Positions 25,948-28,419 of a stretch of DNA of 64,000 nucleotides are shown piece after piece. Both the position numbers and the translations under genes were made by a program. Origin of the DNA: Thermosyntropha sp. GTDB lineage: Bacteria; Bacillota; Syntrophomonadia; Syntrophomonadales; Syntrophomonadaceae. The notes below the pieces were generated by a model. That model made no database searches, was not told where the DNA came from, and was given only the letters and a program-made list of their open reading frames with translations. The stretch lies in the NCBI RefSeq assembly GCF_017656155.1, contig NZ_JACDOH010000006.1, forward strand, positions 62,001 through 126,000, in the 5' to 3' direction. How positions within the stretch are numbered: position 1 is the first letter of the stretch; each line of letters starts with the position of its first letter.

Positions 25948-26499
25948 TTGACAGCTGTAAACAGCCAGTATAAATTTATTCCCTGGAACAGTACAAACAA
26001 CGAGGACAGTAAAAAAACTAGCAAACAGAGTGACAAAAATGTTCTGGGAAAAGACGATTTTCTAAAGCTCATGATTACTCAGCTTAGGTACCAGAATCCT
26101 TTAGAACCGGTAAATGACAAGGAATTCATTGCTCAGATGGCTAATTTTAGCGAGTTAGAGCAGATGAAAAACTTGAATACCAGCTTTGAAAAACTGAGCA
26201 ACCAGTTGGGTTCTTATATTGAATGGCAGAAGGCAAGCTCAGCCGTAGGAAGAAAGGTAGCCTATATTAGTTCAGAAGAATCAGAGAGTGAACAGGTTTT
26301 AGTGGGGGTAGTTGATTCCGTAGTTATTAAGGAAGGCAAGCTTTATTATAATATAAGCGGCGAGCTGGTTGAGGTGGATAGTGTAGTCGAATTTGGCAGG
26401 TTTGAGAATGAAGAAAGCGATATTTTAAAATCTATTCTGGGAAAATTAGAAGATATTTTAGAGGCCTCAACTTCAGAAGAAGGTGAAGTAAATGAATAA
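25948..26499 (+). CDS. flgD: Flagellar hook assembly scaffold protein FlgD
   Basis: 183 residues with TTG start behind GGAGGTG. The N-terminal FlgD signature is LGKDDFLKLMITQLRYQNPLEPVNDKEFIAQMANFSELEQM. A small beta domain follows (about 95-150). FlgD caps the growing hook. It overlaps the next gene by 8 bases. The protein is slightly short compared with enterobacterial FlgD, which is usual in Firmicutes. Confidence 0.95.
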   Translation: MTAVNSQYKFIPWNSTNNEDSKKTSKQSDKNVLGKDDFLKLMITQLRYQNPLEPVNDKEFIAQMANFSELEQMKNLNTSFEKLSNQLGSYIEWQKASSAVGRKVAYISSEESESEQVLVGVVDSVVIKEGKLYYNISGELVEVDSVVEFGRFENEESDILKSILGKLEDILEASTSEEGEVNE

Positions 26500-26875
26500 T
26501 AAAATATTTTTTCAAACCCAGCCAATAACTCCGCTATCACCTAAAAAGAACAGTAATGTATCTTTAAAAACTGATGCCGGGAAAACCAGTTTCAGCCAGG
26601 TATTGAAGAAAGAAATAAACGAACCACTGAAATTTTCCAGCCATGCGCAGCAGAGGTTGAAATCGCGTAATATAGAATTAAGTCCGACTGATATAGCCCG
26701 TTTAGAGGAGGCTGTAGCTAAAGCCAGAAGCAAAGGAGCACGTGATTCCTTGATACTGATGGATGATCTGGCGCTGGTGGTAAGCATAAAAAATAACACA
26801 GTGATTACCGCAGTAAATGGCGAAAATCTGAAAGAGAATGTTTTTACAAATATTGACAGTGCAGTGATAGTATAA
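26492..26875 (+). CDS. Conserved flagellar operon protein (TIGR02530-type)
   Basis: 127 residues. The core matches a conserved short protein family of Firmicutes flagellar operons located between flgD and flgE: FSSHAQQRLKSRNIELSP, then RLEEAVAKARSKGARDSLILMDDLALVVSIKNNTVITAV. Its biochemical function is not established; it may help hook assembly. It overlaps flgD by 8 bases and is followed by the structured flgE leader. The family call rests on recall of this pattern and the position. Confidence 0.85.
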   Translation: MNNKIFFQTQPITPLSPKKNSNVSLKTDAGKTSFSQVLKKEINEPLKFSSHAQQRLKSRNIELSPTDIARLEEAVAKARSKGARDSLILMDDLALVVSIKNNTVITAVNGENLKENVFTNIDSAVIV

Positions 26876-26880
26876 GGCTG

Positions 26881-26977
26881 GACCTCTTTAGAGGAAGCCT
26901 TCGGATGTGGAATGACTGAAGCATCCGGATAGATGCGTATTTAAAGAAAATCGAAAGTTTAAACTCTAGAGGAGGTC
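26881..26977 (+). promoter_or_regulatory. Structured flgE leader that can sequester the flgE ribosome-binding site
   Basis: GACCTC (26881-26886) is complementary to GAGGTC (26972-26977), which contains the flgE SD (AGGAGG, 26970-26975). AGAG (26890-26893) can extend this by pairing with CTCT (26964-26967). An alternative local hairpin, CCTC (26883-26886) with GAGG (26891-26894), would free the SD. Between them is a stem CGGATG (26902-26907) with CATCCG (26922-26927) and a possible TTTAAA/TTTAAA stem. It does not match a riboswitch consensus that I know. Confidence 0.5.
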
Positions 26978-26985
26978 GTTTTAAT

Positions 26986-28419
26986 ATGATGCGCTCCATG
27001 TATGCTGGTGTTTCCGGGCTTAAGAATCACCAGACCAAGATGGATGTAATCGGCAATAATATAGCTAATGTTAATACTACCGGTTACAAAAAAAGCCGGG
27101 TAGTTTTCAAGGATACCTTATATCAGAGCATAAGAGGCGCTTCCCGTCCTACTGATGCTAGGGGAGGAACTAATCCTATGGGAATAGGTTTAGGGATGAC
27201 ATTAAGCAGTATTGACCAGATTCATACTCCAGCTCCAGCTGCCACGACCAACAAGACTACCGACCTGGCAATTGATGGCAACGGCTATTTTATACTGGAA
27301 AACGGTGGACAAATATTTTACAGCCGGGCTGGCAATTTTGATTTTGATAAAATGGGCAATTTAGTAAATACCTCTAATGGTTATAAGGTTCATGGTTGGA
27401 TGGCCGATAAAACTCAGTTTGATGCCCAGGGCAACTGGAAAATAGATACGGTAAAAGCTTCCCAGCCCATAGATATTTCGGCTTTTAAGACTATTGAACC
27501 GAATGCAACTACGGAAGTTAAGTTTTCCGGCAATCTGAATTCTAATCTTTCGGTAGTAGCTAATCCGGCGGTTGATTCAGATAATGTGGTTATAACTTCT
27601 AAAGAAATTTATGATTCCCTGGGAAATAAACATACAATTTATTTTAGATTTTATAAAGTAGCTGAAAATGAAACCCTTAATGTAAAATACAATGATGATA
27701 CTGGTACTGAGCAGACAACTGCAATTACAATAAATAAATGGAACTGTGATGTTTCTTTTGATCCTAATTTTCCTGCACCATCTGGAGGACCTCCGGGTGA
27801 TTTGACTACAACCCAAACTATTGAAAATGTAATTATTTTTGATACAGAAGGCAATTATCCACAGACTGTTTCTGTTGATGGGAAAAAATATCAGATAACT
27901 GGTATTGCTGATCCAGGTTATACCTTCCCGCCTGTGCAGACGTTGACTGCTGTAATGACCAATGGGGCAAAAGATATTCAATTTGATGTGGATTTCAGCC
28001 GTCTTACTCAGTGGGAAACAAAATCTACTGCCTGGGCTGAACATCAGAATGGCTACAAGATGGGCAATTTGGTAAGCTTCACTATTGGTATAGATGGGAC
28101 TATTTCTGGGGTTTATGATAATGGTGAAACCCGCAACTTAGCCCGTATTGCCCTGGCCAATTTCCAGAATCCAGCTGGACTTTTGCAGGCAGGCAGCAAT
28201 CTTTACCAGGTTTCGAACAACTCCGGGGATCCTTTAGTTGGAGCTCCAGGGGATCAAGGAATGGGAAGTATTTTACCCGGAAGCCTAGAAATGTCCAATG
28301 TTGACCTTTCTGAAGAGTTTACAGATATGATTGTAACCCAGAGAGGTTTTCAGGCTAATTCACGTGTAATAACTACTTCTGACGAAATGCTGCAGGAGTT
28401 AGTTAATCTGAAACGATAA
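26986..28419 (+). CDS. flgE: Flagellar hook protein FlgE
   Basis: 477 residues. The N-terminal signature MYAGVSGLKNHQTKMDVIGNNIANVNTTGYKK and C-terminal LEMSNVDLSEEFTDMIVTQRGFQANSRVITTSDEMLQELVNL form the conserved core of the axial proteins. The middle (about 90-400) is the surface-exposed hook domain. FlgE polymerises to the curved hook, and in Firmicutes the same gene position was once called flgG. ATG 26986 lies 10 bases after a perfect AGGAGG within the leader described above. A GC-rich hairpin follows the stop. Confidence 0.96.
   Translation: MMRSMYAGVSGLKNHQTKMDVIGNNIANVNTTGYKKSRVVFKDTLYQSIRGASRPTDARGGTNPMGIGLGMTLSSIDQIHTPAPAATTNKTTDLAIDGNGYFILENGGQIFYSRAGNFDFDKMGNLVNTSNGYKVHGWMADKTQFDAQGNWKIDTVKASQPIDISAFKTIEPNATTEVKFSGNLNSNLSVVANPAVDSDNVVITSKEIYDSLGNKHTIYFRFYKVAENETLNVKYNDDTGTEQTTAITINKWNCDVSFDPNFPAPSGGPPGDLTTTQTIENVIIFDTEGNYPQTVSVDGKKYQITGIADPGYTFPPVQTLTAVMTNGAKDIQFDVDFSRLTQWETKSTAWAEHQNGYKMGNLVSFTIGIDGTISGVYDNGETRNLARIALANFQNPAGLLQAGSNLYQVSNNSGDPLVGAPGDQGMGSILPGSLEMSNVDLSEEFTDMIVTQRGFQANSRVITTSDEMLQELVNLKR

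Follow-up and report, generated by a model that had tools for sequence, protein, structure and literature searches.

The stretch of Thermosyntropha DNA analysed here (64,000 nucleotides, hereafter the window) carries a flagellar operon in which a leader occupies the space between a TIGR02530 gene and flgE, the hook protein gene. Judged by sequence comparison, positions 26873-26928 of the window are a two-hairpin RNA with strong covariation, one copy of a widespread family that we refer to as hook-leader RNA. Comparison of genomes shows that this family is conserved, is absent from Rfam, occurs in two gene contexts, flgE and flgG, keeps in most flgE copies an alternative pairing with the Shine-Dalgarno sequence (SD), and is tied in its presence to the TIGR02530 gene. 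In our preferred reading, to which we assign a probability of about 0.55, the flgE copy has two mutually exclusive folds, one with the first hairpin (P1) and one in which the SD is paired, and the TIGR02530 protein would bind the RNA and leave the SD free.

Table 1. Features of the hook-leader locus, in positions of the window.
Feature	Position	Strand	Evidence and remarks
Hook-leader RNA core (P1 and P2)	26873..26928	+	R2 cmsearch, 65.2 bits, E 1.2e-14
P1 hairpin	26875..26900	+	Covariation, n = 100 sequences
P1 outer stem	26875-26878/26897-26900	+	
P1 internal loop	UGGA 26879-26882 / AA 26895-26896	+	
P1 inner stem	26883-26886/26891-26894	+	
P2 hairpin	26902..26927	+	6 of 6 modelled pairs with changes on both sides
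P2 conserved 12-nt loop	26909-26920	+	N-GA-MY-GA-NN-GA-N; three GA steps 97-100% conserved
Anti-Shine-Dalgarno strand GACCUC	26881..26886	+	Complementary to 26972-26977; comparative tests; also part of the P1 inner stem
flgE Shine-Dalgarno GGAGGUC, UC extension specific to hook leaders	26971..26977	+	112 of 172 flgE leaders with GGAGG, 3 of 218 other genes
TIGR02530 (flg_new) gene	26492..26875	+	NCBIfam, E 3e-37; proposed source of the RNA-binding partner
flgE, hook protein gene, 3' of the leader	26986..28419	+	NCBIfam FlgE/FlgEFG models

The stop codon of the TIGR02530 gene (26873-26875) abuts P1, and a search of the whole window with the R2 model returns the core as its single match. The flgE product scores above the cut-off of TIGR03506; the best FlgE equivalog model, NF004241, gives 442 bits, below its cut-off of 469. 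The initial annotation had pointed out that GACCTC at 26881-26886 is complementary to GAGGTC at 26972-26977, which sits within AGGAGGTC, and that a local CCTC/GAGG hairpin at 26883-26894 competes for the same strand. All letters and coordinates that it gave are correct, and the local hairpin is the inner stem of P1. It had also placed two stems in the intervening sequence: CGGATG/CATCCG (26902-26907 / 26922-26927) is the covarying second hairpin, P2, whereas the A/T-rich stem that lies between P2 and the SD shows no conservation among relatives and was rejected as a part of the element. Folded as a single sequence, the leader does not stand out (z -1.04, with 30 of 200 shuffles folding equally well).

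The fold is supported by comparison among members of the family. In an alignment of 100 sequences fitted to the model, with shuffled and slid versions as controls, the 14 pairs have 98.2% paired cells (81.0% in the shuffled control), 12 of the 14 show changes on both sides, and the covariation score is 0.519, compared with 0.184 for shuffled and at most 0.128 for slid alignments. Because this alignment was fitted to the model, the same 100 sequences were realigned from sequence alone; the top eight covarying column pairs were then pairs of P1 and P2, with 70-100% standard pairing. RNAalifold misassigned P1 on 29 near relatives because P1 barely varies among them, and P1 was placed correctly with a wider sequence set. 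The initial annotation had made its proposal depend on covariation in homologous leaders, and the stems do covary. The most conserved positions are the unpaired ones. Each letter of the GGA in P1 is found in 100 of 100 sequences, the internal loop taking the form YGGA/AR across the family, and the three GA steps of the P2 loop are conserved as G 97, A 100, G 98, A 100, G 100 and A 99 of 100; at a guess, the spacing of this loop would be compatible with tandem G-A pairs. Conserved helices with compensatory changes, located before one class of genes, are what we would expect of a structured cis-regulatory leader, and this is what was found.

Searching 61 genomes for FlgE produced 30 loci (L002-L031, the window's locus counted). 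The flgE 5' end can be read in all of them except L021, and in each of these 29 the same two hairpins stand directly before the gene. A covariance model built from these loci (R1) matches 44 of 63 genomes within the order; in a sample of the phylum it matches 236 of 398, spread over 167 of 267 genera, and most of the genomes matched have one or two copies. An exact pattern, GGGCTGGACCTC-N2-7-AGGAAGCCC, matched at least 80 stretches; each of the 80 matches listed precedes a FlgE-type N-terminus, as judged by profile throughout and by automatic start calls for most. Among them are Syntrophomonas, Thermosyntropha lipolytica, Brevibacillus and Sporomusa, together with records titled Geobacter, Desulfuromonadales, Latescibacteria, KSB1, Armatimonadia, Omnitrophota and Bdellovibrionales. 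Many of these come from metagenome bins, and any single phylum label may be wrong. We examined 207 elements (206 distinct), consisting of 127 of the better-scoring model matches and the 80 pattern matches listed and thus not a random draw. All 207 precede flgE or flgG, 182 being called flgE and 25 flgG; gene-type and start calls were automatic, and one element (L119) is called flgE yet resembles flgG. The genome of the window has exactly two model sites, one before flgE and the other before the gene of an FlgG protein (TIGR02488 above cut-off).

Some further contexts were seen. A 53-bit match in a Geobacter-type genome (L321, approximately 1501-1660 on the reverse strand of the locus) lies behind an EF-hand-like ORF and precedes a gene that is neither rod nor hook, the sole such context seen. 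In Desulfuromonadales (L320; G459:C18:44985-45039), an additional FlgE/F-like gene between flgD and the TIGR02530 gene has its own RNA copy. One element (L269, genome G397) has no flgE or flgG in the next 500 nt and no TIGR02530 match in its genome, and is possibly explained by a contig break or as a relic.

The presence of the RNA follows that of TIGR02530. In the 398-genome sample, FlhA was found in 326 genomes, CsrA in 285 and TIGR02530 in 280. R1 matches 228 of the 273 genomes that have both FlhA and TIGR02530, compared with 1 of the 53 that have FlhA and lack TIGR02530, and all seven RNA-bearing genomes without an FlhA match have TIGR02530. The improved model R2 matches 22 of the 45 remaining TIGR02530-positive genomes and 2 of the 53 negative ones, namely G384 (79% complete, and already counted with R1) and G397. 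The last 23 TIGR02530-positive genomes were inspected by eye, not blind, which gave a clear diverged element in 15 (L270, L272, L274, L276, L278-L283, L285-L289), a partial one in four (L271, L273, L275, L277) and no clear one in four (L284, L290, L291, L292). As read from the genome table, the families f16, f31, f33, f44, f64, f67, f102 and f135 each hold genomes with both TIGR02530 and the RNA and genomes with neither, f16 even within one genus (G058 and G315, genus g42); one of the genomes in this comparison, G326 (f64), is only 87% complete. Such mixed families argue for joint loss of the RNA and TIGR02530. A TIGR02530-like ORF lies just upstream in 79 of the 80 named loci listed, and the 80th has only 49 nt of sequence there. 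The gene order TIGR02530-RNA-flgE could link protein and RNA by position alone; the flgG copies, however, lie elsewhere. TIGR02530 has no match in 14 control genomes, including the flagellated E. coli, B. subtilis, Caulobacter and Thermotoga maritima, and the RNA may have been overlooked so far because its proposed partner protein has no match in those genomes.

In most flgE copies one strand of P1, GACCUC, can pair with the SD instead, and the P1 fold and the SD-paired fold are therefore mutually exclusive. In the hook leaders with GGAGG (n = 172; nine further leaders lack it) the next letters are UC in 112 and UU in 25, whereas in other genes of the same loci (n = 218) GGAGG is followed by UC in 3 and by UG in 74, GGAGGUG being the commonest form; Fisher's test for GGAGGUC, which ignores relatedness, gives p of about 1e-48. 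The hook SD therefore departs from the usual extension toward the complement of its leader. The fit between leader and ribosome-binding site (RBS) is -11.45 for 162 flgE pairs, compared with -11.19 (sd 0.05) when permuted, and -6.36 for 25 flgG pairs, compared with -5.48 (sd 0.30); none of 200 permutations reaches the observed value in either set, and these values are inflated because the test ignores relatedness. On the GGAGGUC statistics and this permutation test we reject chance complementarity of leader and SD. Compensatory pairs were recognized by eye as leader ACCCC with SD GGGGG (L122, L123, L135), CCUUUC with GAAAGG (L094, L098) and, at flgG, ACCGC with RBS GCGGU (L121, L161); further pairs at flgG are CUCCUU/AAGGAG (L083) and CUCUUAUU/AAUAAGAG (L089). 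Each of these cases probably represents one event.

The two folds are close in predicted stability. The predicted ensemble energy in the window is -36.8 kcal/mol with P1 and -36.5 kcal/mol with the SD paired, a difference of 0.3, and across 112 leaders the SD-paired fold is predicted to be less stable than P1 by a median of 2.6 kcal/mol and is favoured in 15%. In the diverged flgE leaders L280 and L273 there is an apparently different anti-SD hairpin after P2 (CUCUC/GAGAG; CCUC/GAGG), possibly an alternative expression platform. An exclusive SD-hiding fold that has been kept in evolution, as in riboswitch-like translational switches, was found for flgE leaders and not for flgG copies of the GACUGC type, and from these comparisons a translation switch at the flgE leader is likely. 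The hidden RBS that the initial annotation had proposed is supported at flgE by the UC extension, the permutation fit and the compensatory changes, and does not extend to seven GACUGC-type flgG copies.

The inner stem of P1 differs among the flgG copies (GACUC, GACUGC and GACCGC, with matching 3' strands), and the outer stem and the loops are constant. No anti-SD complement is visible in the GACUGC-type copies L095, L101, L116, L119, L128, L151 and L159, and diverged flgE copies are likewise without a visible one. In L121, L161, L116 and L095, other sequence separates the RNA from the flgG start, at a distance of 220-430 nt; if the RNA acts at all there, it could do so from afar. With no visible anti-SD in some copies, and with others that far from the start codon, a single switch mechanism cannot account for all of them. 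A sigma-28-like promoter, counted with a consensus pattern, is present within 110 nt upstream of 9 of 25 flgG copies compared with 1 of 102 flgE copies (background 0.012). In L082 (G000:C2:300600-300962) such a promoter lies immediately 5' of the flgG copy, and flgG may be a late-class gene in that group.

The AlphaFold2 model of TIGR02530 (pLDDT 84.8) is confident from about residue 41 and of low confidence in the first 33 residues. Foldseek with this model gave no match below E 0.001 and an uninformative ranking (actin-fold fragments), and a PDB profile search with the sequence gave chance matches only. In VIA, 12 of the top 13 rows are RelE/ParE/HigB-type chains, with middling Z scores of 5.0-6.1 and residues 39-120 covered at the widest; the thirteenth is Cami1, which we take to contain a RelE domain, and lower rows include unrelated kinases and YeaZ. 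DUF4258, presumably a RelE relative, weakly matches 25 of 64 TIGR02530 members at E up to 0.1 (best 0.0016). These matches are suggestive of a RelE-like fold. The N-terminus has a hydrophobic patch and a long stretch of low confidence, and residues 34-38 form an FxxxL motif. Hydrophobic residues occupy positions 5-7 in most TIGR02530 proteins that reach the N-terminus, F34 is found in 61 of 61 letters, and FxxxPhi in 114 of 117 proteins, a motif short enough to arise by chance. The gate recognition motif of flagellar export has the form Fxxx-phi. Early flagellar export substrates are described, in excerpts of PMC8983047, as carrying a hydrophobic N-terminal signal and a gate recognition motif, at residues 36-40 in Salmonella FlgD. 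The N-terminus of TIGR02530 can be called early-export-like in sequence, as a candidate.

We read P1 and P2 as a binding site because conservation of their unpaired letters persists in copies that lack an anti-SD. As its ligand and the binding partner of the RNA we infer the TIGR02530 protein, which is encoded just upstream in the hook operon. Binding would keep the anti-SD strand in P1 and the SD would be left free, which is the least certain step, its sign included; hook translation would then track the level of free TIGR02530. More tentatively, and with considerable doubt, TIGR02530 could be a RelE-fold RNA-binder with an export-gate docking signal that binds the hook-leader RNA of both mRNAs and couples flgE and flgG translation to the type III export gate. 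It would do so by being exported itself, as an early-stage counterpart of FlgM, or by serving as an adaptor that brings rod and hook mRNAs to the gate.

A compact conserved core with invariant unpaired letters would also suit a riboswitch, in which P1 and P2 form a small-molecule aptamer and TIGR02530 co-occurs merely by belonging to the same type of flagellar operon. Differing expression platforms, with the anti-SD conserved in most flgE copies and not in flgG, are riboswitch-like as well, and the protein partner is so far proposed from co-occurrence. However, the RNA is nearly confined to genomes with TIGR02530, both are missing together in some genomes of at least eight families, and a metabolite would need no such protein. 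We consider a riboswitch unlikely. Equally unlikely, in our estimate, is that TIGR02530 represses, by binding P1 and P2 or by way of a pseudoknot between outer P1 and the SD that blocks ribosome entry, with export in the early secretion mode relieving the block and accumulation after the specificity switch shutting synthesis of hook and rod proteins off, in mirror image to FlgM. This would fit the closeness of P2 to the RBS in many copies, and also the N-terminal patch and FxxxL of TIGR02530, near the position of the FlgD gate motif given in the excerpts of PMC8983047. Yet its export is a prediction from sequence, some elements are hundreds of nucleotides away from the start codon, and formation of the inner P1 stem precludes SD pairing, which points to activation.

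Simple coupling, in which the ribosome finishing TIGR02530 would melt P1 and the anti-SD pairing so that flgE depends on upstream translation with no ligand, seems to us improbable. In 85 of 120 loci GGAC does stand no more than 12 nt from the stop codon of TIGR02530 (median 5 nt), but coupling leaves the invariant P2 loop and internal loop unexplained, and likewise the flgG copies, of which the nine with a sigma-28-like promoter (by the consensus pattern) follow that promoter and not the end of an ORF. Finally, the GGA motifs of the leader could bind CsrA, which is known to control flagellin mRNA in this way; the genome does carry CsrA, and both the SD and the internal loop of P1 contain GGA. 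We regard this as very improbable, given that 35 of 236 RNA-bearing genomes have no CsrA match, that the first base of the P2 loop is G in only 46 of 100 sequences, and that the invariant GGA is in an internal and not an apical loop. As a general partner CsrA was rejected for lack of association among flagellated genomes, where the RNA occurs in 197 of 276 with CsrA and 32 of 50 without.

None of the Rfam 15 covariance models matches the window at gathering score. The leader region gave only two chance matches to human RNAs (E 6-8), and 16 further loci only two chance matches, Termite-flg and flg-Rhizobiales giving none at E up to 5; known Rfam families, including these two and the c-di-GMP riboswitches, were rejected for lack of a model match. 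The Termite-flg and flg-Rhizobiales motifs, which we take to be linked to flagellar genes, resemble the hook-leader RNA in being candidate RNAs tied by name to such genes; they differ in that their models do not match the window and their hosts are narrow (termite hind gut and Rhizobiales). Both (RF01729 and RF01736) appear as candidate RNA motifs in excerpts of PMC2864571. The main text of PMC11109978, on noncoding RNAs in 50 genomes, has no occurrence of flg, flagell, hook or motility. In the literature searched, which was chiefly open-access, with most subscription papers and bioRxiv preprints outside it, neither the hook-leader RNA nor a function of TIGR02530 is described.

Several known systems offer partial parallels. 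Ribosomal-protein leaders and translational riboswitches combine a conserved binding core with a variable anti-SD switch, as the hook-leader RNA does, although the latter is unrelated to them in sequence and fold and has other genes and another candidate ligand. FlgM is an exported anti-sigma factor, and TIGR02530, if exported, would likewise be a secreted cytoplasmic regulator that reports the state of the export apparatus; FlgM, however, targets sigma-28 and late genes, whereas TIGR02530, whose export is only predicted, would target rod and hook mRNA. In the CsrA-FliW-Hag system, the activity of the controlling protein follows assembly and export. For Bacillus subtilis, excerpts of PMC6529632 describe this system as control of flagellin translation at the RNA level. 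A similar arrangement may hold for the hook-leader RNA, in that a flagellar structural gene would be controlled at the RNA level by a protein responsive to assembly or export, but CsrA acts on flagellin via GGA sites, whereas the hook-leader RNA is found at hook and rod genes and has no association with CsrA.

Compared with the initial annotation, the new elements are the widespread family, the flgG copy in the same genome, a core that consists of P1 and P2 rather than the anti-SD, and the link to TIGR02530. It is understood only in part how hook and rod synthesis is timed and limited to suit the state of the export apparatus; coupling of synthesis to type III secretion at the level of mRNA is a long-debated idea. 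A conserved RNA that stands before exactly the hook and rod genes, and that occurs in several other phyla besides most of the Bacillota genomes sampled, together with one strongly co-occurring protein, makes this question of coupling directly testable.
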